Below, piece by piece: positions 3,175 to 58,540 of a DNA stretch of 64,000 nucleotides. Under the pieces are notes generated by a model that made no database searches, had not been told where the DNA came from, and worked only from the letters and a program-made list of their open reading frames with translations. How positions within the stretch are numbered: position 1 is the stretch's first letter; every line of letters starts with the position of its first letter. The stretch lies in assembly GCA_018389105.1 (NCBI GenBank), contig JACATO010001703.1, positions 1-64,000 of the forward strand, written 5' to 3'. The translations under genes and the position numbers were made by a program. This DNA comes from Nautilus pompilius (Eukaryota > Mollusca > Cephalopoda > Nautilida > Nautilidae).

Positions 3175-3748
3175 GACGCTATAAGCGTTGGCAGTCCTGG
3201 GCCGGGATTATCAACCCGGCTTCTCCATAACAACGCTATAAACGTTGGCAGTCCTGGGCCGGGATTATCAACCCGGCTTCTCCATAACAACGCTATAAAC
3301 GTTGGCAGTCCTGGACCGGGATTATCAACCCGGCTTCCCCATAACAACGCTATAAACGTTGGCAGTCCTGGGCCGGGATTATCAACCCGGCTTCTCCATA
3401 ACAACGCTATAAACGTTGGCAGTCCTGGGCCGGGATTATCAACCCGGCTTCCCCATAACAACGCTAGTAAACGTGGCAGTCCTGGGCCGGGATTATCAAA
3501 CCGGCTTCCCCTAACAACGCTATAAACGTTGGCAGTCCTGGGCCGGGATTATCAACCCGGCTTCCCCATAACAACGCTATAAACGTTGGCAGTCCTGGGC
3601 CGGGATTATCAACCCGGCTTCTCCATAACAACGCTATAAACGTTGGCAGTCCTGGGCCGGGATTATCAACCCGGCTTCTCCATAACAACGCTATAAACGT
3701 TGGCAGTCCTGGGCCGGGATTATCAACCCGGCTTCTCCATAACAACGC
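3175..3748. repeat. 57-bp minisatellite, ten head-to-tail copies
   Basis: Ten copies of a 57-bp unit, nearly identical apart from copy 6, which has small indels. Each unit holds a 6-bp inverted repeat, GCCGGG / CCCGGC, around an 8-nt spacer. Because 57 is a multiple of three, the minus strand stays open through several copies and reads as a 19-residue repeat containing RSRVDNPGPGLPTF. I take this as a by-product of the unit length, since there is no start context, domain or splice pattern. The low divergence implies recent amplification or homogenisation. Confidence 0.95.
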
Positions 3749-4552
3749 CTCGAAACAAGAAACAGGAACCGACACTTTGCTGAAAGCGTGAACTAAAGCT
3801 GTCAGGGTAGTGAATTCAAAAGATGAAAGATGGTTCCCAGAGTAAATATCATGAATCCACTCCAGCAAGTTTTTTTTGTGTGTGCGTGTTTGTTTTCCGG
3901 GTCTGACATGCGATAGATGATAGTTTACGAAAGGGAGGAAAGTTGCGCTTAATAGTCTGCAGTGATGTTTGGTAACGCTTTCCTCGTCTACTTCACGGGT
4001 ATTCGCTAACCAGAATGGCAAAACAATTAAGCATTGCTTGGCACTTGTCATTAGTAATGGTAAAGTAGTCTAATGTCAGCCAGTCTACGGTTACACCTGT
4101 GCCATCTAGCATCGGTTTTACCTCGTCTTAAAATACAATGGATCTGCTACTAAACTCGCTAACTTTCTTTGGCGTTTATTTTTCTTTTTTTGTATTGTTT
4201 TTTTTTTTTTAGAATTTTCGAAGTAATTTTAACACCTGGCTGAAGTGAATTAATTAAAACTTGTCCGACTTCAGAGTAAACTATGAAAATAAAGAGACAT
4301 TGTTATTACTAACCCAAGTCGGCATCGTTTTAGACGCTTGGAGTAATAACGATGACGTTGGTAATGTTCTAGTGTGAGGCCCAGTTACTGTCTGCTGTGA
4401 TGCCAAATTACTTCTCACGGCAGCCTTTTCTTTGTTCTAAACTACCACACAAAGATTTAACGCTGATCAGTCGTTATGTTACGGTAATTTAGTCTCCTTT
4501 TTGATTACGTTAAGAACCGGTACTGTAAATGGGTTGCAAAATTTTGACAAAA

Positions 4553-4644
4553 AAAAGAAAGAAAGATGACGTCAGTGCAGAGAGAGATGAGAGAGGGGAG
4601 AGAGAGGAGAGAGATGTATATCTATAGAGAGAGATGAGAGAGAG

Positions 4645-4676
<32 letters not shown>

Positions 4677-5002
4677 GATGAGAGAGAGATGTATATATAT
4701 CTATAGAGAGAGGAGAGAGAGCGAGAGGAGATGTATATATATATAGAGAGCGGAGAGACGAGAGAGCGGATGGAGAGAGAGAGAGAGAAGAGAGATAGAG
4801 AGAGAATGTATATATATAGAGAGAGCATGAGGGAGAGAGAGAGATGTATATATATATCTAGAAAGAGAGATGAGAGAGAGAATGATATATATATATATCT
4901 AGAGAGAGATGAGAGAGAGAGATGTATTATATATATGAGAGAGTTCTATAGATATATATATTCGAGAGAGAGAGATGAGAGAGAGAGATGTATATATCTA
5001 TA

Positions 5003-5033
<31 letters not shown>

Positions 5034-13095: not shown

Positions 13096-13244
13096 AGAGA
13101 GAGAGAGAGAGATATGACGTCAGTACAGAGAGAGAGATGACGTCAATGCAGAGAGAGGGAGAGATGGAGAGAGAGAGATGGAGAGAGAGAGAGATGAGAT
13201 GGAGAGATGGAGAGAGAGAGGGAGAGATGGGGAGAGAGAGAGGA

Positions 13245-13308
<64 letters not shown>

Positions 13309-13680
13309 TGGAGATGGAGAATGGAGAGAGAAAATGACTCAGTACAGAGAGAGAGGAGATGACGTCAATGAGAGAGAGGGAAGATGGAGAGAGAGGAGAG
13401 AGTAGATAGATAGAGAGAGATAGAAGAGATAGAGAGAGAAGAGAGAGAGAGATAGAGAGAAGAGAGAGAGAGATGGAGAGATGGAGCGCTGGGAGAAAGA
13501 GACCTACGTCAGTACATAGAGATGGAGAGCGAGATCGCTAGAGATGGAGCTGGAGAATGGAGAGAGAAATGACGTCAGTACAGAGATAGAGCTGGACGTC
13601 AATCGGCAGCGAGAGAGAGAGTGGATCGCTGGATCGCGAGAGCGCCTCTAGAGAGAGGCGAGAGATGACGTCCGTACACG
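13096..13680. repeat. (GA)n array with about eight TGACGTCA-type junctions
   Basis: GA tracts are broken by GATGACGTCAGTACAGAGAG-like junctions at about 13,112, 13,138, 13,333 (TGACTCA variant), 13,359, 13,503, 13,570, 13,594 and 13,664. It is the reverse-complement orientation of the large array at 26.5 kb. The long arginine/glutamate-rich open frames here are products of the repeat, not genes. The right edge passes into a GAGAGCTCGCGCC-rich palindromic stretch (about 13,690-13,760). Confidence 0.9.
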
Positions 13681-14623
13681 AACCCTGGCGAGAGAGAGCT
13701 CGCGCCGCGCTAGCTCTCGCGCGCTCGGCGGCGCGCTCTCTCGCGCTAGAGCTCGAGCATCGATTTTCCGTCAGTTCCGACAATTGGGCAACCACCACCA
13801 AATCTTTAAATATCTGTGGTTTTCTGATATTTCCTTGCATTATCTGCTCTAAGCGTCATAACAGAAATATCTCGCGCAGAAGGGAAGCGACACCGAGTCT
13901 CCGCGTCTGATATAGGTCCGTATTTAAGAGAAGATTCTGGAACCTCGCTGAAAGCGAAGCGCAGGTGATCTAACTTAAAATACCAGAATTAGCCAGTTAA
14001 CTGTTCGACATAGATACCTGACGCAGATTTTCAATTCGAGAGTGTGTGCGACCAGCCTTCTATGGCTGCTTGTACTAAGTGTCATAATTATAAACTGACT
14101 AAGTCAGCCAGCCCAGGTTTACATTAGGAAGTGATCAGATTAAATAACTCGCTGGTGAATGTGGTTAACAGCGGTAGAGTAAATCATTTGCTTAGAAGAT
14201 CGCACCGATAGAGTTTCGTGACTTTAAAAAAAATTTTTTTTTTTTTTAGATTTAAGTTGTAAATTTCAAACAAATTTTCAGTAATAAACATTTGCTAGAT
14301 TATTTATAAACGTAGACCAGGTTTAGTAATTAGAGAATCAGATGTATGCTTTATTCACAACCAAACCACCATAATACCACGTGAATGATTTCGTTCACAC
14401 GGTGAGAATATTACAGCGTCTAGCATACGCGAAAACAGACGAACATTCTTCTTGTGTCTCGCTATCGAGAGACAGAGGAGAACTTCCTCCCGCAGCTCCT
14501 GTTATAGTTTGGTAAACGGCGGAATTCCTCTGAAGAGTCGAGACGCTAGATAAGGCGTAAAAGAAAGAAAAAAGATACTACAGTCTGTTCTCTTCCCGCT
14601 CTCGTCCGGATTAGAAGACAAAG

Positions 14624-21487: not shown

Positions 21488-21516
21488 GACCATCTCTCTC
21501 TCTCCATCGTCTCTCT

Positions 21517-21552
<36 letters not shown>

Positions 21553-21623
21553 GATCTCCTCTCTCTCTCCTCTCTCCCCCTCTCTCTCTTGATGTCATCT
21601 CTCTGTAGCTCTCTCTCTCTTCT

Positions 21624-21673
<50 letters not shown>
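21488..21673. repeat. (CT)n array with a decayed CRE-type junction
   Basis: CT tracts with one CTTGATGTCATCTCTCTGTAG junction near 21,588. It is a one-base relative of the TGACGTCAT junction of other arrays, consistent with C-to-T change at the CpG. The Arg/Glu-rich minus frame is a repeat artefact. Confidence 0.85.
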
Positions 21674-24779: not shown

Positions 24780-25480
24780 CCAACGTCCGAGCCCCTCCCC
24801 CAGACTCCAGCCAGCAGCCTTTCCGTCGCAAACTGAATCTTGCGGCTGGGCTATTTTCCCCGTGATTATTTCCAGCTGATTAAAGGTAGCAAACAACCCA
24901 GCGATTTCCAACTTTAGAATGTGGGGAAAGATCAACATGGCAATAAACCGCGACTTTTCGGCTTACAGGGAGGGATGCGTAACGATCTCTCGTCCGCGGG
25001 TCCGAGACTGTCCGCCTTCCTTCCCTTAACACGAGGCGTGTGGGTTTCTGATCTAACGGAAACCGCCAGGAAATCGAGTGAACTCGCCGCGCTGCGGTCG
25101 CGGAATCTAATGCTCCAGCTCACAAAATTAACGAAATTTTCTGAAAAATCCTGCCTGATTATTAAACTGGTTGGGGAGGGGAGCAAGTCGATGACTGCTT
25201 TCACGCTCGAGCGAGCAGGGTAGGTAGATGACGGCGGTTGGGGGTGGGGGAGAGATGGGAGTGTGACGTCGCCCATCTGTCTGACGCCAGCTTGATTGCA
25301 TCGTTCTCGTAAGCGGCCTCGCCGATAGGCGGCGCCGCCGCTCCGTCGTTTCGACTCCTGAACCCCGCCAGGTGTTTGCTCTCTGACTCACGCGAGCTCA
25401 CGACGAGAGGAAACTAATTCTTGCGGCTCACGGGCCGCAGAACCACGCGGAGTTCGCTTTCCGTTATCTCTCTCTCTCTG
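24780..25480. promoter_or_regulatory. CpG-rich stretch, possible promoter or unmethylated island
   Basis: CpG is clearly denser here than on either side, peaking at about 25,290-25,350 with GGCGCCGCCGC-type sequence. A TGACGTCG site lies at about 25,263. Several frames are open on both strands, as expected of GC-rich DNA, but no exon with a known domain was seen. It may mark the 5' end of a gene whose exons lie elsewhere, or simply a GC-richer patch. No TATA box or initiator can be assigned. Confidence 0.3.
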
Positions 25481-25978
25481 AACGATGGAAACCGTGTGAC
25501 CTTTAAAGTTCCGGTACAAACTTGTAATCACGCTTCGTTCACCAAAAACAGGAGTTAGGGGAGGCTGGATCTATCCTAATCGATTGAACAATTTGCCTAA
25601 ATTTACATCCGATATGCGTTTAAATCAGCCGTCCGTGTTAACTCCATCGACTTTGCCGACCCTGCGATCTAGGCTCCATCGCGAAGGAATTAATGAATAG
25701 CTTAACTTAATGTTGAAATTCTGCTTTCGAAAATAAGGGTAATCGAACTGACATTGTCAATATGCATGCCCAGTCAAGGTGCGCGCGTGCGTGTGGGAGA
25801 TAGAAAGGTGAAGGAAGGGAAGAATAATAGTACAGTTCTGCAAATGTTTTATTTGGTTTAGCCGTCATCGTGACAAAACATGATCTGTTCATGCTCCATG
25901 AATCCTGACCAGTTCCACAGCCCTCTCCCCAACCAAAAGAACTCTCCATCAATACAGTTTCCGAACTGATTTACGCCG

Positions 25979-25980
25979 TA

Positions 25981-26024
<44 letters not shown>
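25979..26024. repeat. (ATT)n microsatellite
   Basis: About fifteen uninterrupted TTA/ATT triplets. Confidence 0.97.
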
Positions 26025-26027
<3 letters not shown>

Positions 26028-26489
26028 GTGATCGCTACAACTGAGATGAAACTTTAAGTAATTTACAGTCACACACCATCAAGGAGAGATGACGAGATAA
26101 TCAGTTACCATCCGCTCACTCTAAAACCTCTGTCGGGCCCCGATCTCTAACGTCCGATATCTTATTCTAGATAAATGTAATCAATCTTTCACAAGAAAAA
26201 GCAAGATTTCTGCATACCTCAAATGCCTACATACAAAGAGACGACTGCCAATTAGCATTCACTATTACAGTTTGGACTGAAATACGTCTAGTAAAAATAG
26301 ACCAGCATGAAATCGACGTGCAGAATATGTCTCATACTTTGCTAATTTGTTTAGTTGTTTTCATTTTCCTCCTTCTTACCCCTATTATCTTGAAAATCTA
26401 AATTTGGCGTACAGTTCACTGTGGAGACTGACATTTGGCGTGCGTTCGACTTTTACAAAGGTTTTCTGAGAGAGCCGCCGATATCTCTC

Positions 26490-26492
26490 TCC

Positions 26493-26540
<48 letters not shown>

Positions 26541-27350
26541 ACTGACGTCATATATATCTCTCCATCTCTCTCTATACCGACGTCATCTCTCTCTCCATCT
26601 CTCTCTCTCCCTGTACTGACGTCATCTCTCTCTCTGTGTACTGACGTCTATATATATCTCTCCATCTCTCTCTATACCGACGTCATCTCTCTCTCTGTGT
26701 ACTGACGTCATATATATCTCTCCATCTCTCTCTATACCGACGTCATCTCTCTCTCTATGTACTGACGTCATCTCTCTCTATACCGACGTCATCTCTCTCC
26801 ATCTCTCTCTCCCTGTACTGACGTCATATATATATATATATATCTCTCCATCTCTCTCTATACCGACGTCATCTCTCTCTCTCCCTGTACTGACGTCATC
26901 TCTCTCTGTGTACTGACGTCATATATATATATCTCTCCATCTCTCTCTATACCGACGTCATCTCTCTATGTACTGACGTCATCTCTCTCCATCTCTCTCT
27001 CCCTGTACTGACGTCATCTCTCTCTCTCTGTGTACTGACGTCATATATATCTCTCCATCTCTCTCTATACTGACGTCATCTCTCTCTCTCCCTGTACTGA
27101 CGTCATATATATCTCTCCATCTCTCTCTATACCGACGTCATCTCTTTATGTACTGACGTCATCTCTCTCTCTATACCGACGTCATCTCTCTCCATCTCTC
27201 TCTCCCTGTACTGACGTCATCTCTCTCTCTGTGTACTGACGTCATATATATATCTCTCCATCTCTCTCTATACCGACGTCATCTCTCTCTCTGTACTGAC
27301 GTCATATCTATCTCTCCATCTCTCTCTCATCTATCTATCTATCTATCTCT
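26490..27350. repeat. CRE-bearing (CT)n array, about 26 GACGTC cores
   Basis: CT tracts and short TATATAT blocks are separated by two junction types. Type A reads TGTACTGACGTCAT (about 16 perfect TGACGTCA octamers plus one TGACGTCT variant). Type B reads TATACCGACGTCAT (about nine CGACGTCA). The types often alternate, so the higher-order unit is A, TATATATCTCTCCATCTCTC, B, CT-run. Cores are spaced roughly 20-60 bp apart. TGACGTCA is the consensus cAMP response element bound by CREB/ATF dimers and is self-complementary. It ends in (CATCTAT)n-like sequence at about 27,328-27,348. Whether any site is bound is unknown. Confidence 0.95.
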
Positions 27351-27519
27351 CACTCCCCACCACCGCCGCCTCCCAGCTTTACATCAACTCTTTCTGTTAG
27401 CCGATTCCAGGTGGAATGGAAAAATTAAGGTAGATGAAGAAAAATTGTTTTTTAAAAAAAATTCAGTTGATGATACGTCAAAATAAATCTTGTATTTACA
27501 GAATCACTATGCAAAGCCT

Positions 27520-27690
27520 ATAACATTACGACATTTACTTGACGTTCTGATAAAAATAGACTTTACATGACATTTACTGATGAGGAGGATGAGCTTTTCC
27601 TGACATTTTCTTTTATTGATAAAGGTAAAATTTATATGGCATTTACATTTATTGATAAAGCTGAGTTTAAGTGACATTTATTGTCACGTA
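27520..27690. repeat. Degenerate short tandem repeat, unit about 38-42 bp
   Basis: Four loose copies of a module built from TGACATTTA-like then TTTATTGATAAAG-like sequence, at about 27,530, 27,568, 27,606 and 27,645 onward. Copies are strongly diverged. It is similar in character to the 47-bp satellite at 20 kb but has a different consensus. Confidence 0.45.
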
Positions 27691-28439
27691 AGAAAATCTT
27701 TTATTTGTTCTGCAAAATATGGAATAAGACTGTTATTTTGGAGGATATATGAACAGTTGTAAATTTACAGTTGATATGCTAAGAATAGCAATTAAAATGC
27801 TGCTGTTGGAAATACACCGATTCTGGGGGCATTTTTACAGTGCGTGATAAATGTAGGCAATTTTTTGGTAACCGTTTCTCTTTAAGTATTTCTTCGATAA
27901 CGCTTGCAGCGTCATGTGACTAGCAGTCACAGCGCGCGCGTGGCTAACGACAACCGAAAACCGGCTCCAGACTCGCACGCAGCGGTGGCGCTGTATTTCT
28001 AGCCTCTGAAACTCTCCGGCGATTTTCACCGTGAAATCACGTCGCTAATTTGTAGTCTGTTCCTGATCGCTGTAAAGCTTTCACAAGGCTGCGAAGAATC
28101 GGTGTAGATAAACTAGGATAACTTTAAGGCCCATTGATTTTCGCATTTTCTTTTGTTTTAGTTTTAGATAAAAGCTCTTACATCGTAAACCTTATCATCG
28201 AGAAAATGTTCTGGAGAGTTAGATCACGTAACCCAGCGAGAACGATCGGGACCCTAACCAGATCTCCCCCCCACCACTGCCTGCCCGCTCGAGAAAATGC
28301 TTGTATAGAAACGCCCATTCCAGTCTGCTTTTAGTTTAAAAGGGAACTTTTGAGCAAAAAAAAGTAAAATTACAGCTAACTGAAATTCTCAAATCTTCTT
28401 CGATCACTCCTCTCCTAAGAGTGGGATGTGTTGCACCGT

Positions 28440-28778
28440 CATTACGCGCACTCTGGCCCAGTGCAGCCGTCCGTCTTCAGCAGTGGTTTATTCTTCCGAC
28501 TTTTCCCTGTCATAGGAGACTCGCCTCTGTCATGGCTATAGAGCGTCCCTCGCATTCGGTTCCTCTGCCTGAGTGCCTACACGGGCCACTCCCCAGCAGC
28601 AATGCCAGTAAAGTACCTCGCTCAAGGGTCACAATAATGTGGCAGCAGCGGGGACTGAACCCAGGGCCCTTAGGTCCTGCGCTCAAGGGTCACAACAATG
28701 TGGCAGCAGCGGGGACTGAACCCAGGCCCCTTAGGTCCTGAAGCCAGCACACTCACCACCGAGCCACATCGCCTGGCA
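28440..28778 (-). mobile_element. tRNA-headed SINE with internal 61-bp duplication
   Basis: On the minus strand the element starts with a tRNA-like head at about 28,778. It has an A-box-like TGGCTCGGTGGTGAGTG and a B-box GGGTTCAGTCCCC (28,723-28,711), as in RNA polymerase III internal promoters. The 61-bp segment 28,680-28,740, holding the B box, is duplicated next to it at 28,619-28,679 with two or three differences. The body continues leftwards through unfamiliar sequence to roughly 28,440, where the end is uncertain. The head does not fold as an intact tRNA as far as I can judge, so a tRNA gene is unlikely. Confidence 0.6.
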
Positions 28779-28789
28779 AATCCACAAAT

Positions 28790-33234: not shown

Positions 33235-33294
<60 letters not shown>

Positions 33295-33317
33295 TCTCTT
33301 CTCTCTCTCTATCCCAT

Positions 33318-33371
<54 letters not shown>

Positions 33372-33404
33372 CTTCCCCCCTCTCTGTATTAATGTCATCT
33401 CTCT

Positions 33405-33485
<81 letters not shown>

Positions 33486-33512
33486 CCTCTCTGTATTAAT
33501 GTTCATCTCTCT

Positions 33513-33555
<43 letters not shown>
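33235..33555. repeat. (CT)n array with two decayed CRE-type junctions
   Basis: Long nearly pure CT tracts. The junctions GTATTAATGTCAT (about 33,387) and GTATTAATGTTCAT (about 33,492) match the GTACTGACGTCAT junctions at 26.5 kb, with C replaced by T and G by A at the central positions. Confidence 0.9.
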
Positions 33556-33559
<4 letters not shown>

Positions 33560-35637: not shown

Positions 35638-36175
35638 GTGAGTAAACGATACATCCCGCTATCGGTTTTATTCATTCACGAGATAAAAACAAAATCTACT
35701 CCGTGATATAATCTTTTACGTTACACGAACCAATCCGCAAGAAGTTGTGTTTTTTATATTATTATTATTTTGCCTTTTGCCAATATAAATACATTCCCCC
35801 CCCCTCTCCCACACGGGGCCGCTCACGTCTTCCCCATTACTACCTATGACGTTATCTTGTGCATCAGCGGCCTTTGCTTGACATTGGACACCCCGCCAGT
35901 TTGGATTGTCTGTACCCTATACCAGCGATCTGAGTCAGAAGTGGCTGCGTGATTATTTGAACAAAGAAAAAAAAAAAGATTCATGAATGGCGGTTGGGTG
36001 TCTGTTTTTCTTTCCGCCTAATGATAAAAAGTTAAAATTTAAAAAAAAACAGAGAAGAAACAAATTGTGTTCGGAATAGCTTTTGACAGCAACCATATTG
36101 CATAACAAGCCAGAAGGCATGAGCAGATGTTTGGATGATGTTAGATATAACGGAGAAAGTAAGAGACCAATGATT

Positions 36176-36545
36176 CTCTCTCTCTCTCTCCATACTGACG
36201 TCATATCTCCTTCTCCATCTCTCTCTCTGTACTGACGTCATATCTCTCTCTGTAATGATGTCATCTCACCCCTCTCTTTCCATACTGACGTCATATCTCT
36301 CTCTCTCCCTCCCTCTCTCCTTCTCCATCTCTCTCTGTACTGACGTCATATCTCTCTCTCTTTCCCCCTCTCCCTCTGTACTGACGTCATATCTCTCTCT
36401 CTTCCCCCTCTCCCTCTCCATCTCTCTCTGTACTGACGTCATATCTCTCTCTGTACTGATGTCATCTCCCCCCTCTCTCTCTCTCTCTCTCTCTCCGTCT
36501 CCCCTCTCTCCCCCACATCTCTTTCTCGCTCCCCCGCTTCTCTCA
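36176..36545. repeat. CRE-bearing (CT)n array
   Basis: CT and CCCT runs are punctuated by TACTGACGTCATATCTC junctions at about 36,196, 36,232, 36,284, 36,337, 36,379 and 36,431, plus two TGATGTCAT variants (about 36,255 and 36,460). Only type-A junctions are present. Same family and orientation as the 26.5-kb array. Confidence 0.92.
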
Positions 36546-39500
36546 GTACATTCGTTTTTACGAGTTATAAAATGTAATTTCTCGGTCGTGCTACTTCATA
36601 TATATTAACTTGCGTTGCATGTGGCACCACTCAGTAATTAGTTGAGTGATCTCCTGTCTTTGGAAATTTACCTCAACAACATTCGCATACACTTATCTTA
36701 TACTTCAATGCACAAACTGTTATAATAACATCGTGATTTCTTCTCCCCTTTTTTTAAAATCTTTTTTTGTTTTGGTAAATATGAAAACAGATTTATGGAA
36801 TAAGGCTGTTTTATTTTAGATCTTTACAAAAGTACTTTTTAATAGTCGTAACGAATTAGCGTCCATGTTTCCGGTTTAAAAAGAAATTGAAATATTTTAA
36901 TATTATCTAAGATAACGGTAATCTATATAAAGAAAAGAGAGAAATTTGTTCTTGGATTTACTATCACCTCTTTATTACATTTAATAATAGAACTAACTCA
37001 GTCATATAGGTTTTGGAGATGTTTCCCAGCTGCCATCATCAGTGTTTTGTTTTTAAAAGCTAAATTAGTAGCGTTCATTCTCAGCAGCATTTTTTATTAT
37101 ATTTGGATTGTATACAAGTAGCCTGAGTTGGTCCTGAAGCTGCCTGCTGCTGGATGCTAAGACGTGGTGTAGATGGTTTATATACTTTATATTGCCACCA
37201 AATTCGCTTTCCTTCAGTTTTATTATAAAACAAATTCAAAATGAAAAAAAACAAACAAAAAAAGTTTGTTTCTAATCGATCTGATCGATCTGCCGAATGT
37301 ATCACTCGTATGTATTTGTACGTCACAAATAACACGTGACTTACGTCCCGCGAGATCAACGACGAGTTAAATGGTTGTTCATCGTCTTCCTTGTTAGGAA
37401 ATTACAATATCCGAAAGAAAATAGTTACTGACTTACAGATTTATCAAAACTCTACGATGCACTGCGTTGGTTGGTAACTCTTTCGATGTGAAGAAAAAAA
37501 GGTACATTTATTGCTGTTTATTATGCCAGCTCCTGACAGAAGTACACTTGGATTAATGCTAGAAACCTAAGCGTACTTATCTTGATGAGGAGGCAGGTCT
37601 GCAAGTAATATTTAAAAAAGCAGCCTTATGTGTAGAAAAAACAATGTTGTGTGCGTGAAGGTACAATCCTTTTTGTAGCATAGAAAATATTACTCTTTCA
37701 ACCAGGTTATATAAGCACTCAGCGTACAGAGATTAAACCCTTATCTATATCTTTTTTCAGTCCTTTTTCAGATGCACTGATATTTAATTGCTGATGTGCA
37801 AATTAACAACGGTGTTTCAAGGTCGCGGTGCCAACAAACCATTAGTTGGAGAGCAGAGAACAAGAACTTGGAAGCATCACTGGTGACGAGAGGACCTGTC
37901 TTCAGTCTGACACTTGCCGAAGTTCTTGAGCTTTGTCCTTTTGTTAAGTCGTTGGTTCGAGTTGCCTTCATTAGCTTTTCAGGTGAGAGAGGGGGACATT
38001 TAAACGTTCGACCAATCGAGATTTCCGAGCGCGCGACTGGTTTTTCGTAATTGCGTTTATCCAACTTATATATGCAGCAATATTCCATTCAAATATATCT
38101 GCGACGTGAGAAAGAAAGAAACATGAAAGATGTTCAGGATGACATTTGTGTTGATCGTTTCGATGTCGCTAAACGCTGTTCCGATATATAAAGTCTGCTC
38201 TCCAAGTTTCAGATCATTTGCACAAATTTGGAAGGTAATGTAGCGGAGAGTTCCGGGTAATTGGCAATCACCTCCTGCCAAGAATTCATAAAGTGCAAAG
38301 AGTTTATTTCCCAGCAGATTATTTATGACAGATTATTATTTTTTTTTTTTTTTTTGCTAAATAAAAGGTATTAGGTGACAGGTCGGACAGAAAGAAAAAC
38401 CGTTACCAATATCAGAATAGAGTTTTAAAACCGACCGACTTTGCAGACAGTTAAGCTAATCGATTCTTTGGCCTAAAATCGTTATCCAAATTTCTATAAA
38501 CACGCACGGAAATCTTGGCTTATAAAATGAAATAGAAGCATCAAAGGAAAAGCATTTTTGAACTTTCGAGTAACGACAGCTATAGGAAAGTTTTCAAAGC
38601 GCCATTTATTGAACTAGCGAGGATGACGCTAGATGGAGCTCTTGGCTGTCTATCGCAGCAGTCGCTTTGGATTGGTTTCGCGGTATCGTAAACTATTCAC
38701 GTTTCTTGAAGAATACGTGTTAGGAAAATTTGGCATCAGGTAACTGATTACGCGCGGACTCTGGTAAATTCTCGAACTTTTATCCTTTTGATTTTAATGT
38801 ATACCTTAGTCTCGTGCTCGGGAAGGCAAAGCCGGATCACGAGATCGTCCGCTCAGGTTCCATTATCTTGTGACCTGAACCACTGTCGAACGGGTTTCGT
38901 TTTCACTCATTCGGTTTATCGTTGACCCCCCCGTATCGGGTATTTATTAATGTTTCTCTTTTCTTTTCGTATCTGAGCACAATAACAAGGGAAAGACTGA
39001 GAGGACCAGGCGACAAAGTTAAGGTCTGCGTTGATTGTCATCATAAATATTGTTCTGCTCTCCTCCCCCTTTTCCTTCCTACTAATCGCTCAAGAATTGG
39101 ATGATTCACAATTTAGGAGGAATAGCACATAACACAGTCATACACTAATGGCTCCACTGTTTTGCTTGGTCTTCTGATGAGACAAATCCCCTTAACGTCC
39201 GACTCCACGATTATCCGTTCTTCCACGCTATTGAGTAGCCACACTTCTCCAACGCCAGTTCTAATTTTAGAAACTCTAATTCTTTTCAATAAACTACAAT
39301 AAAAACTAATTAAAGTCATCTGTTACTTCGATTTTTACTTTCGACTTTTCTCTGTGTTTTAAAATATATATAAAACCAGAAATTAATCATTTTTGGAGTT
39401 TAAAGTTGCTAAAAGTTCGAATTATTTGTTTCGATGTCTTTAAGGAGAATGTGCGGTGTTTCTTGGTAGTAAGTTCTGTTAATTTTATTTGTTATTTGAC

Positions 39501-40431: not shown

Positions 40432-40725
40432 GCCCGTTTGGCCGCCATTCGCCTCACCTCTCTGGGCGGTGACGTAATCGACGTTGAAAGGAGGATATCG
40501 GCTCACGTGGTTCGGACTTTCCCGGTCGAGCCCGTTTGGCCGCCATTCGCCTCACCTCTCTGGGCGGTGACGTAATCGACGTTGAAAGGAGGATATCGGC
40601 TCACGTGGTTCGGACTTTCCCGGTCGAGCCCGTTTGGCCGCCATTCGCCTCACCTCTCTGGGCGGTGACGTAATCGACGTTGAAAGGAGGATATCGGCTC
40701 ACGTGGTTCGGACTTTCCCGGTCGA
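40432..40725. promoter_or_regulatory. 98-bp CpG-rich module in three identical tandem copies
   Basis: Copies at 40,432-40,529, 40,530-40,627 and 40,628-40,725 appear identical. Each carries GCCGCCATT (reverse complement AATGGCGGC, the YY1 core; 40,441-40,449 in copy 1), TGACGTAA (half-consensus CRE/ATF, 40,470-40,477) and the E-box CACGTG (40,504-40,509). The flanks are also CpG-rich and carry further CACGTG. Such a combination is typical of housekeeping promoters, so an amplified promoter or enhancer is plausible. Identity also means a recent duplication, or an assembly artefact. Confidence 0.6.
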
Positions 40726-43700
40726 GCCCCCCACACACACCCTCCCTTAAAAATTCCCAAACTTCAGGACCCAGAAAACACGTCGCCGCTCGCGCCACAT
40801 ATCGTATTAATGTTTTCGACGTTGTTTTTGTCCCCCCCCCCACCCTCGGGGCCGTTCCACCTCGACCATCCAATTATTTTTCCAGAAGCTTCTCTCTAGA
40901 ACGCGAGTAAGCGAACTGTGTCTGCGGACTTCCAGGCTCTTTCCAAAGTTATAACAGCCATTTCCCGTCCATTACCCGACGAGCGACGACCGGCTCCGCG
41001 CGAGATCGGCCACGCCCACCCATCAATCAAACTTGGCGTGTCTTTCCAAAGATTGGAAGCACTAGCAGGCACTCGGAAAAAGAAAACCTCCGTTCCGGGT
41101 ATGATTAAAACAACACAACAGCAGTTATTACCTAACAGCTGGTCCTGGCAAAATAATTCGATAAATCATCTGGAGATTAATCTGTTTTTCTTTCTTTAAA
41201 ATATCGTAAATACCTCACTCGCTGTAATAAGCCAGTTACCACGGGGACCCCCACGGGATACTTTCTCAGAGTCCCGTCAAGTTAGAAGATGATTGATAAT
41301 TTTACATTTACAATTTTATCCCCGTTAGTTCTGCTGCATGAAAATGGATTCCTGGCCGTTGTCTTCCATTTATTTCCCCTCGGCACGGGCCGTACAAATG
41401 CGGGAGAACTTTCGAGAAGCGAACGGAAATGAGAGCGAGTGTGTGTGAGGATGGAGAGGTTGCATAAGACCCGTTTTGCGCTATGTTGGTAGATAGGGAA
41501 AGGTTTCGCTCGTTATTTGCTGTTTAAGGTTAAGATTTCTGTCGACACGAAGGATGTTCGGCGTAAAACAGCCTTAGTTCAGTATCGTTTGGCACGAAGT
41601 CCGTCAGTGACGGCGTAGATTCGGAGCTGAAACATCTATTTAAATAAAAAAACGGAGAGAAAAGAGTTGCGATTGATGTTAGGGAACTCGGAAGAAGTAA
41701 GTTCCTGTTCTTGAGAATACTTCGGATGTTTTATGGCAACCTTGTTAAGGATTGTAATATTACCACAATAATATATATATATATATGTGAAGAAAGCTTC
41801 CTCTACATCCAGCTCTAAAACTGCGTCACATCAATATATCAACGACCACCGCCGATGGAACATATTTGATACACTTATGATTCCGTCGCTAAAATATGTT
41901 CTAGTATTAGGCCTTGTACACTCTTATGATTGTGTTTTTTACTTGTTTAATTGTTCAAAGGTGAGCAAATCTGCTTTGTCTGACATTTGCGTAATGACGG
42001 TTTCCTCAGGTAGTTAGCTTTTGCGACCATTCTCGTGGAATTAATCCCGGCTGGCTGAATATCCTTTGTTCTCGCCAAGCTGAAACAATCTAAATCGCTA
42101 CCTTTTACCTGGCAAACAAAATCCATTCAGGTGAGAAAAACAGAGACTTGCATTGACAGTATCGAGAACACTTCTTCGTATAATAATGTGGGAGAGCCGG
42201 TGGGGGGAGGGGACAGTTGAGCCGCGAGATAGAATTAAAGATGTTCCAATATAATTTTTACGAGCCTAAATCTCCGTTAGATGGGAGCCGAAGGGTCCAC
42301 CTGTTTCACCTGTAACCAAATGTTTGTAGTAGGACAGAAAACGAGCTCATTGTTCTAAAAAAAAACGGTTCTCTTTTGTTCAAGAGGCATAATAACATTT
42401 TAAAAAGCGTCTTTTTTCTTTTTAATTTGAAAAATGTATATTATATGTTTAGCAAAATAGAATATAAAAATCTAGAATCTCTATTGAATTCGGGAATTTT
42501 AAAAAATGATGTTGTTTTCTCCTATAAATGTTGTGCACGAGAAGCATCTGTCCTTGAACTCAATAACTGCCAAGATGAAGAGATCTTGTCCCCGGGCAGT
42601 AGCTGTGTATTAAAGCTAACGTCCATCGTGAAAATTGATACCGTGGGCGGATGAAGCTTCTTCCAGGTGCTGAAACCAAACATGACCTTTTCTGGGAAAG
42701 GAGGTGGTACGGAGTTGTGGGGGGGGGGTGTCGTCGTCGACAGCAGAAGATCGAGAAGAATGTTTGGTTAAAGCCGCCAGTCCGCGGAGACAGCATTAAT
42801 CGAGAAGTAGCGTGAAATCGAGGCGAAGGGAGGCTGCGTGGATGCTGCTTCAGACATACTCTTCCCCTGCACTCTGGAACTTCGCCGCGGAGTACATATT
42901 TATACAGCTTAATGAGCCAATGCCAATATTAAAACAGTGGCACTCGAATATCTATTTGGTTTATATCATGTAAATTAATTATTTTATCCAACCGGAAGCC
43001 ACTCGAACTGATCTGGATAAGCCACGGGGTAGCAGAACTTACAGTAAATGGGGGTCGGTTCGAAAATTTTTTTTTAATTTTTTTTTAGCTGGTTTAGAAA
43101 CAGAAGTCCATTACACAGGAGGAAGTGCTAGACTGGGCCGATTTTAGTTCGTGCGCTAAAAAAAAAACTATTTTACGGGCGCAATCTGATTCCGTCTAGA
43201 TGACGAGGAAGCTGAAACACAAGATGCTCTCGGTACATGGGCCGGGGCTGGACGTGTCTGTTATTAACGTCAGCCCCCAAGGTGTAACTTAACAACCCGC
43301 TAACGAAACCAAAACGGTGTACACCGACATAAAGTCCACCGACTGTCAGTGAAACCCCGCTCACCGGGTCAAACGTGGAGGGGGTGTGGCGACGAGACAC
43401 CGGATAATGAAATTAATTCCCGCCAATCTTATAGTAAGTTAAGAAATCATTCGTAAATCCATTTTGTAAATCACGTCATAAAATGGTCGGATCTGCTGAG
43501 TTCCGCTTTTGATGCAACCCAGTCATTGGAACAACAAAAGAAAATTCCGCATTGTCTAGTAATTATATCTAGCGTTCGAGAAGACGCGAGCAAATAATCG
43601 ATGCAACATGATGAACTGTTTGTTGTATAATTAAATATGAAACTAACCAGATATTCCTTCTTAGAAAGGCGAATGAAACATGTTTTCTTTAGTCTTGGAC

Positions 43701-54110: not shown

Positions 54111-56814
54111 TAACCTAAATAAAACAGTTAAATAGTTTTGATAAAATAATTCATACACCTTTTAAAGCTTTGTCCATTTATTGACATCAAGTTTTATTCA
54201 AAACATTATAATTTAAAAGGAAAGTCTTCTAAAGATCTTTGATATAGAAAAACATGGTAAAAGATTTTAAATACTTTAAAGAACTTTATGCGAGATACTT
54301 TTCTCAATAAACCTAATAAAATAGAATGTTGTTTTAAATTTAGATTCAGTTAAATTCATGGTTCACACTTTAATTGTTGGTGTAAAGATAATAGAAATAT
54401 GTATGATTTTGATTTTTGTTGGCGTGCTTCTAATTTTTTAATATAAAGATTTTGATTTAGTTAGTAGTTTCTTTGATAAAAATATTTTTCATCACATATT
54501 CTAAACTAAAAGAAAGTGTTATTTGTGTAATTTATGTCAAACATTTTGGACTAAACACGCTAAAAATATTTTACAGAATTAAAAGTTGCGAACAAATACA
54601 AATTTTAAAGGTTTATTTTAAACTTATTGAATAAATTATTTAAAAGTTATAGGTTAAATTAAACTTTTAGATAATATAAATGGTCATAATGTAGATGGAA
54701 AATATATTGTTATTCTTTCTAAGTAAATAAATAAATCAAATTTAATTATTTTCGTTAAATGATTTAAAATTATGTATAGTAAATAAAAGTGAAAAGGAAA
54801 AACAATTAAATTTATTAATTTGTATATTTGGTTTAACATCTTCTATAATAACTGTATTAACAAACAAATTGAACATACAAAAGAGAAAAATATAAGAATC
54901 GTTTAAAATTAAATAAACCTAGTTTAATCTAGATTAAATAATTTAATTTAATGTTATAACTAAAAAAAAAACAAAAAAATATTTTTAACAAATAATTGAA
55001 TTTTGTACATAATCACTCAAAGCTGCATTCGAAATCATCGAATTTGCCTGTGTATTCACCATAGTTTCTATTCAATTTTAAGTATTAAATGAGTTTAAAT
55101 AGGTTTTAATTTACTAGTTTAAACGAATCAAAATTTTTTTAAGAAAAAAGAACTGGTTAAAGTATAATGGCTGGAAATTTGAATTAGATAATCATAGAAT
55201 TATAGATATTGACCCCGTTAATTTTAATTTTGAGGTTCACATTCATGTAGATAATTAAGTCCATCAGATAAATATATTTTGGATAGAATGTGATTTTTGG
55301 AAGTAATCCTGTCATTAATTAAAGTAAGTTTTATGCTTTTGACGAAAATAATAATAAAACTTTAATAATGTAGTTGTATTTCATGTTTTATCACATTCTT
55401 TACATTCAACTAATTATAATGGAAATAAATTAATAAATAGAAATGAGACCACAGTAGTTCATACACCAAATAATATAAATGAAAAAATAAAAATAACATT
55501 TTCATCGGTAAGAGTTTATGTAAAAACAGACACTTGGATTCAGTTAGAATTTTTGGTATAAAATTAAATGTTTTAACGATACAGTAAAAATTAAAGAATA
55601 GACATTGTCTTGCACAAAATAGTTATAGGTTTTATGCGTAAGATAAGATAGATTATGATGGATTTAAACTGAAAAGAAAACATAATTCTAACTAATGCAA
55701 ATTTAATCATTAATGCATGAGCGGCTAAAGAATGTTGCTTTAAAAGACTTAGTAAGAAATATAAATCTAAACAGTAAAAAATTACAAATTTAATTGCGCC
55801 GATATCTGGATCAGACGATGAAAATAAAACTTATAATAATAATAATTTTCTGGATCAATTAACGAAACATGCAAGACACTTCAGAATTGATATGAAAAAA
55901 TGTATTACAGATATTGAATCACCATTAACTCGCAATATAAATCATAATTATTATGCATCCTAGTACGAGGTTTAAAATTTTAAAGAGTAATACATAGATT
56001 TTCTAGAATAGTGGTACTAAATCAATTAAAAATGTGAGTTGGGAAATTTACCAACAGTTACAGTAGTGTGTGCACATAACTCTGTAGGGCAGGGTAAGTT
56101 AAATCATAACCACTGGATAGGTAGAAGCCAAAACGAAACAAATCACATGGGTTATAAACATTCAAAACTATTGAAAAAGCTCAGAGAAATTAAAAACCAC
56201 TTAATTCTTTTAATATTAATATATTAAACAAAAATGACGGTTTTAGATTGTTTATATCTGAAATCTTTATTTTTTTATTTTTAAGGAACAGAAATTCCCT
56301 ACTTAAAGTTGTATTATTTTATTTTCTAGTAAAAGTTCTATGCTGTTTAGCAAACATTTTTCGAATACTAATAATTACCCCCCACGATGTGCTTCGTGAC
56401 GTCATTAATTTTGATTATCCTGTAATAAAACTTTTCCTTTGTTAATTCATTTTCTTAAATTTAATTATAAATCTGGAAAATAATTTCATCAAAGGGTTAG
56501 CAATCCGTTTAAGTTTTATTTTCAATGAAAATTCAAACTTTTATTATGCAAAGAGAGAAATTCTTCAGGATATCATACCATGTTACTCCGCATACACTTG
56601 CACCCCAGATATACTCGCCTGCAGGTATATCCGGATTAATTTTTTTAGAAAATGAAAACACTTCGATTTATTTGATTTGATTTATTTATATTTACATCTT
56701 CGAAAATATTCATTTAACATTTGAGCATTTTCATTTGGCTTTCATTGGCTTTCTGGGTCCTGTCACTTGACATGCGATTGGATCTTCTAGCCCCCTACGC
56801 CGCTTATTCTCCCT

Positions 56815-57008
56815 TCTTCCCGTAACTTTCTTGGAACGTGGCCAATAATTTGGTCATTCCTCAAAACACATACTGCATATTTGTTGTGAGGATTTTCGGG
56901 TTCTCTTCGTGTTTCACCGATGACTGGATTCCAAGAACATTGGTAAATGTGGTGACCGGTAACAAAACTATCAAACTGAAATGTTTGGGGCGACGGTCTT
57001 GGCATCAT
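56815..57008 (-). pseudogene. HIRAN-like domain fragment
   Basis: The minus strand from 57,008 reads MMPRPSPQTFQFDSFVTGHH, then IYQCSWNPVIGE, REPENPHNKYAV and IIGHVPRKL. This matches HIRAN-type domains, which bind DNA ends in SWI/SNF helicases such as HLTF. It also matches stand-alone HIRAN-like proteins that are multicopy in many marine invertebrates ('G.HVYQ.VW.P.iGE...REP.N..D.yAVaV......vGHVPr'). The match stops after PRKL, at the expected end of the conserved core, and the frame then ends at 56,787. With no recognised partner exon it is either one exon of a repetitive HIRAN gene family or a transposon-carried fragment. Confidence 0.55.
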
Positions 57009-57148
57009 GCCATTTTCCGTAATGTTTTTAGAGGAAAAGGTATTTACTTTACCTTAAAACCGGGTTGCATGTTTTTGCGATTGTCTATCGAGTGATTGGA
57101 TAAAGCTTTTTTCCTTCCTTAAATCAATGAATGCTCATTCAATAACCA

Positions 57149-58399: not shown

Positions 58400-58442
58400 C
58401 AGAGAGAGAGAGAGAGAGAGATGACGTCGATACAGAGAATAC

Positions 58443-58494
<52 letters not shown>

Positions 58495-58540
58495 AGATAG
58501 AGAGAGAGAGAGAGAGGAGAGCGAAGAGAGAGAGAGGTAT
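58400..58540. repeat. (GA)n array with one CRE-type junction
   Basis: GA tracts with GATGACGTCGATACAGAGAA near 58,421, the same junction as the other arrays with one or two changes. Confidence 0.9.

Follow-up and report, generated by a model that had tools for sequence, protein, structure and literature searches.

A CRE-bearing minisatellite in a CT microsatellite

The dense cluster of CRE palindromes in a CT microsatellite of Nautilus pompilius (array A, Table 1) most likely arose through the usual growth of a tandem repeat whose unit contained a CRE by chance. We assign a probability of about 0.78 to the reading that array A represents a single local expansion of a family of minisatellites located inside CT microsatellites, brought about by slippage and unequal exchange, with the CRE as a passenger of the founder unit. 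The sites, dense as they are, appear to be inherited and not to have been assembled for gene control. The analysed window is a stretch of 64,000 nucleotides (contig JACATO010001703.1), with a GC content of 39% and a CpG observed/expected ratio of 1.02.

Table 1. Array A, related CT/AG arrays and CRE palindromes outside the arrays. Positions are those of the window.
Feature	Position	Strand	Details
Array A, CT microsatellite with 26 [T/C]GACGTC sites	26484..27352	+	CRE-to-CRE units (21-45 bp) arranged in multi-unit blocks that recur
Span of the 26 sites of array A	26543..27304	+	16 TGACGTCA, 9 CGACGTCA, 1 TGACGTCT
Four-unit block A-D-E-C, first copy	26703..26818	+	116 bp
Four-unit block A-D-E-C, second copy	27098..27211	+	114 bp
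Block A-D-C	26914..27008	+	A-D-E-C without the whole CRE-to-CRE unit E
Array B, second CT array of the family	36175..36545	+	8 core copies: 6 with TGACGTCA, 2 with TGATGTCA
Array C, AG array, core on minus strand	13096..13745	-	6 core copies at ≤4 mismatches, 2 of them perfect
Array D, AG/AT array	4552..5033	-	one core copy (4566) at the 3' end of the CT strand
Array E, CT array	33236..33556	+	decayed core TGTATTAATGTCAT (33385); one more copy has a T insertion
Array F, CT array, assignment uncertain	21493..21672	+	one weak 4-mismatch core ending in TTGATGTCAT
Array H, AG array	58401..58537	-	one core copy (TGTATCGACGTCAT)
Six non-array TGACGTCA	14848, 15747, 19885, 35276, 46155, 56397

Array A carries 26 consensus or near-consensus sites within 762 bp. 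This recount agrees with the initial annotation, which had placed an array of about 26 CRE palindromes at this position and had counted about 16 and about nine perfect copies of two forms (16 TGACGTCA and 9 CGACGTCA in the recount). The single TGACGTCT is located at 26642, and full TGACGTCA is absent at 10 of the 26 sites. The consensus site is present above chance: in 500 dinucleotide shuffles of the array, TGACGTCA had a mean of 0.028 and a maximum of 2 (16 observed), and GACGTC had a mean of 0.47 and a maximum of 3. All 35 CpGs of the array are found inside [T/C]GACGTC sites.

Two junction types predominate, TGTAC + TGACGTC (16 of 26) and TATAC + CGACGTC (9 of 26), with a single case of TATAC + TGACGTC (1 of 26); CGACGTC is preceded by TATAC in 9 of 9 cases. 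These junctions had been described as alternating. There are indeed two types, and C-type sites are never adjacent (as is also seen in 1.4% of shuffles), but the order of the first letters of the sites, TCTTCTCTCTCTTCTTTTTCTCTTCT, is only loosely alternating. Spacings between sites are odd in 24 of 25 cases, so that lengths vary by two; odd spacings are what two-base slippage predicts. A coding repeat was also considered and rejected, since the frames are interrupted or of low complexity.

Units and multi-unit blocks

When array A is cut at its sites, about seven unit kinds result, in the order ACBABADECAFBADCBAFADECBAGA. The mutual information between neighbouring unit classes, which were defined by us after viewing the array, is 1.54 (shuffle mean 0.96) and was reached by 2 of 20000 shuffles. 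The four-unit block A-D-E-C is present twice. In the alignment of its copies, 112 positions are identical, no column is mismatched and 6 positions are gaps. What appears to be a single C-to-T change (the second copy reads CTCTTTATG) is concealed by the gaps; the remaining difference lies in the lengths of the CT runs. The shorter block A-D-C, when aligned with 26703-26818, has 91 identities, 0 mismatches and 29 gap positions, 21 of which correspond to one unit. When the comparison is extended to A-D-C-B-A and A-D-E-C-B-A, 150 positions are identical, one is mismatched and 31 are gaps. The breakpoint of A-D-C can be placed anywhere within the shared GACGTCATCTCTCTC stretch and is not assignable to the CRE as opposed to the neighbouring CT run.

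Array A is thus built from head-to-tail units of one ancestry, which form near-identical multi-unit blocks in a non-random order, as in a higher-order tandem repeat (minisatellite). Its 26 sites look like block duplicates rather than separately gained sites, and so do not represent 26 independent events. This block structure suggests tandem copies of one founder inside array A, which is part of the case that the initial annotation had named as speaking against its interpretation.

An oriented core in several arrays

What is repeated is not just the CRE but a longer, oriented core, TGTACTGACGTCAT, which is common to several CT arrays in the window. The repetition of the CRE palindrome had been recognised correctly before, but neither the oriented core nor its presence in other CT arrays of the window had been mentioned. 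At ≤3 mismatches, 42 matches to the core are distributed over 6 of the 10 CT/AG arrays examined (26, 8, 5, 1, 1 and 1 matches), while 300 permuted words gave a mean of 0.06 matches in the arrays, a maximum of 10 matches and a maximum of 2 arrays. At ≤4 mismatches, 44 of 47 matches have the CT direction and 3 the opposite one, on AG and CT arrays alike; permuted words average 0.91 matches at 4 mismatches. Array F is also matched by 2.7% of 300 permuted words at 4 mismatches. There is no match to the core in 4 of the 10 arrays at ≤3 mismatches and in 3 of the 10 at ≤4, the arrays devoid of the core being G, J and K. Outside the arrays, the core is near chance: at ≤3 mismatches there are 5 matches, compared to 4.15 (sd 2.5) in 200 permuted words, and at ≤4 mismatches there are 50, compared to 39.8 (sd 10.7).

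A second shared element is the CTCCATCTC interruption, which has 13 copies in array A, 10 in C, 3 in B and 2 in E, and none in the other six arrays. In arrays other than A, the site also occurs in the decayed forms TGATGTCA or TAATGTCA. Judged by these words, six, perhaps seven, of the ten arrays look like one family.

Possible spread by a transposable element

The same oriented core is found in arrays that are 2.6 to 53 kb apart, and retrotransposons that target microsatellites exist. A transposable element with CT tracts as cargo or as target might have spread the unit. We consider this unlikely, even though arrays A and B are followed, further downstream, by similar stretches of about 60 bases (27693-27742 and 36756-36820), with a strict score of 41 (shuffle mean 23.4) that was reached by 0 of 200 shuffles. 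This likeness is AT-rich, is found at unequal distances from the arrays (339 and 210 bases) and is the top-scoring one among the many pairs of flanks compared for 9 arrays. Under looser scoring, the score of the 3' flanks was reached by 26 of 200 shuffles and that of the 5' flanks by 114 of 200. Furthermore, the array flanks have no common sequence in a self-comparison of the window (E 1e-4), and inverted repeats of at least 14 bases were not found in 25400-28600.

Strand folding and the role of the palindrome

Both strands of array A fold well beyond shuffles when treated as single strands (z -9.3 and -8.8; 20 shuffles each), with -68.6 kcal/mol for the whole strand (shuffle mean -25.1). A single copy, typed as a 28-base example, folds to 0.0 kcal/mol, so no hairpin is extruded by the site in this one example; two natural neighbours fold to -6.1. 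Replacement of GACGTC by two non-palindromes changes the value for array A from -68.6 to -8.1 or -7.0, while two other palindromic hexamers give -77.7 or -62.1. In these predicted folds, the folding of array A is pairing between copies, and it seems to be independent of the letters of the CRE. The earlier label "cruciform-prone" therefore applies to pairs of copies but not to a single site, and the two other palindromes are equivalent in this respect.

It is tempting to speculate that the palindrome drives the expansion. Hairpins between copies would stall or switch the replication fork at the CREs, palindromic units would out-multiply others, and the match to the CRE would be incidental. The folding of both strands far beyond shuffles is consistent with this, as is the finding that non-palindromic substitutes abolish most of the folding while other palindromes retain it. 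The CRE bases are also less mutated than TGTAC in other arrays (see below). However, the first duplications are left unexplained when a lone (typed) copy is unfolded at 0.0 kcal/mol, and that naked single strands fold does not show that such folding takes place in cells. The A-D-C breakpoint, too, cannot be placed in the CRE rather than in the adjoining CT run. On balance, we regard a driving role of the palindrome as rather improbable.

Preservation of the CRE and possible CREB/ATF function

Arrays other than A hold 18 core copies. Among these, mismatches affect 9 of 144 cells in the eight CRE bases and 17 of 90 in the adjacent TGTAC; 4 of the 9 mismatches in the CRE fall on the C of its CpG. 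For CRE versus TGTAC, the permutation fraction is 0.002 for the 18 copies and 0.008 for the 12 distinct words, but as the copies are related, the evidence is weaker than these fractions suggest. That the CRE is better preserved than TGTAC argues against a pure passenger, though again the copies are related, and TGTAC borders a slipping tract.

Outside the arrays, TGACGTCA is found 6 times in 59 kb, with 0.46-1.12 copies expected (the range reflects the order of the Markov model). For this excess, the Poisson tail multiplied by 256 palindromes is 0.002 to 0.27. Only six of the 256 eight-base palindromes, all of them AT-only, have a larger excess over the first-order expectation than TGACGTCA. 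Together, the preservation of the CRE and the excess of non-array TGACGTCA leave some room for a functional reading, though with a low probability.

Such a reading has a general and a specific form. The general form is that the CRE core is under selection or self-maintenance. The palindrome would persist across separate arrays while the rest of its unit decays, which would provide a renewable reserve of sites for CREB/ATF (or for palindrome-dependent recombination), amplified by microsatellite instability. This we regard as a long shot.

The specific form, which we consider highly improbable, is that array A itself is a CREB/ATF binding platform (a titrating sink or an enhancer seed) with its CRE kept by selection. 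A CREB/ATF sink or enhancer seed is putative and rests on the motif and one modest conservation signal. The 26 consensus or near-consensus sites in 762 bp would fit such a platform, as would the lower mutation of CRE bases compared to TGTAC in other arrays and the excess of TGACGTCA outside the arrays. In addition, a synthetic oligonucleotide with three copies of TGACGTCA is described as a CREB decoy in cells (PMC3692501). However, the copies in array A resemble block duplicates and not separately gained sites, 10 of the 26 fall short of full TGACGTCA, and the site is decayed to TGATGTCA or TAATGTCA in other arrays. Moreover, no gene was recognised in the window among the 139 ORFs scanned. Helical phasing of the sites is absent as well; it was rejected since the null reaches it in 29-94% of draws.

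Proposed mechanism and significance

The unit is roughly (CT)n-TGTACTGACGTCAT-(CT)n, and in array A it often includes a CCAT interruption and, behind the site, a run of (AT)n. The oriented core recurs in several arrays, blocks are repeated, whole units are present or absent, and lengths vary by two bases. Under the preferred reading, local expansion of a minisatellite with the CRE as passenger, polymerase slippage in the CT and AT runs would account for changes in array length, and blocks would be added or removed by unequal exchange or template switching between homologous units. The CRE palindrome would be present because it was already contained in the founder unit. The CGACGTCA form probably arose on a unit of the TATAC type and was then copied along with that unit. 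Same-strand pairing between copies of the palindrome may aid changes in array size.

If the process is ordinary, array A is a clear illustration that slippage together with the exchange of blocks can copy an existing transcription-factor site dozens of times with no selection acting on that site, and it calls for caution in scans for motif clusters. If the CRE proves to be better preserved throughout the genome, CREB/ATF sites would be made and spread by way of CT microsatellites.

Other features of the window

Two further tandem repeats are present. At 3176-3748, there are ten copies of a 57-bp minisatellite (96% matches), the unit of which holds a short inverted repeat (CCGGG/CCCGG). At 40432-40729, a 98-bp unit is found in three perfect copies. 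A 61-bp tandem duplication (28619-28740) lies inside a tRNA-SINE-like repeat (28619-28780, minus strand), which looks like a tRNA-derived SINE, judging by putative box A and box B motifs. There are no tRNA or Rfam matches in the window.

The Pfam scan covered 139 of the 228 ORFs in the window, all of them among the 150 listed; of these 150, ten that overlap arrays or the 57-bp minisatellite were set aside, as was the ORF at 25131-25397 (minus strand). At E 0.01 or better, one ORF each matched HIRAN (0.00074), GPR15L (0.0089) and Phosducin (0.0096). The first of these may be an exon fragment with a HIRAN domain (56790-57053, minus strand), its score of 19.7 bits being below the Pfam cut-off of 24.7 bits. 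This match and the tRNA-SINE-like repeat point to an animal genome. A database search with this ORF gave no match, and comparison with PDB gave one weak match (E 0.023).

Array A had no match among plasmids and array B none among phages, both being non-animal collections searched with a BLAST filter that hides simple repeats. Two exact patterns had no match in viral contigs, and one had none in prokaryote genomes, which are likewise non-animal collections. For a translated frame of array B, none of 2711 candidates was at E 10 or better. Literature searches with the core words, and with CRE in combination with minisatellite, satellite or tandem repeat, returned nothing on such repeats as judged by titles and the starts of abstracts.

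Comparison with known systems

Compound micro- and minisatellites with a higher-order repeat structure have, like array A, tandem units, repeated multi-unit blocks, length variation by two bases and presence or absence of whole units. Array A differs from them in that each unit carries a self-complementary consensus for a transcription factor, or a variant of this consensus with one base changed, and its family differs by having the same oriented core in several separate CT arrays.

Repeats may also be dense binding ground for transcription factors, a likeness that is putative for array A. Horton et al. reportedly demonstrated in 2023 that short tandem repeats bind transcription factors, the repeat itself being bound and the binding being measured. 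GGAA microsatellites are bound by ETS fusions. In those cases the repeat itself is the bound element, whereas in array A the CRE interrupts the repeat and is known from sequence alone. The CT/GA runs of array A, for their part, also fit GAGAG, the consensus of the Drosophila GAGA factor (PMC12618267).

A bZIP-type site that recurs with each tandem unit, as in array A, is described for the 68-bp VNTR in the human PDYN promoter. It has one AP-1 site per repeat and one to four copies, with a reported effect on expression (PMC3934978). The PDYN VNTR thus has one to four copies in a promoter, while array A has 26 sites that have been seen in genomic DNA only. Finally, the synthetic CRE decoy resembles array A in its tandem copies of TGACGTCA. 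It is a designed oligonucleotide that is transfected into cells (PMC3692501), unlike array A, which is genomic.
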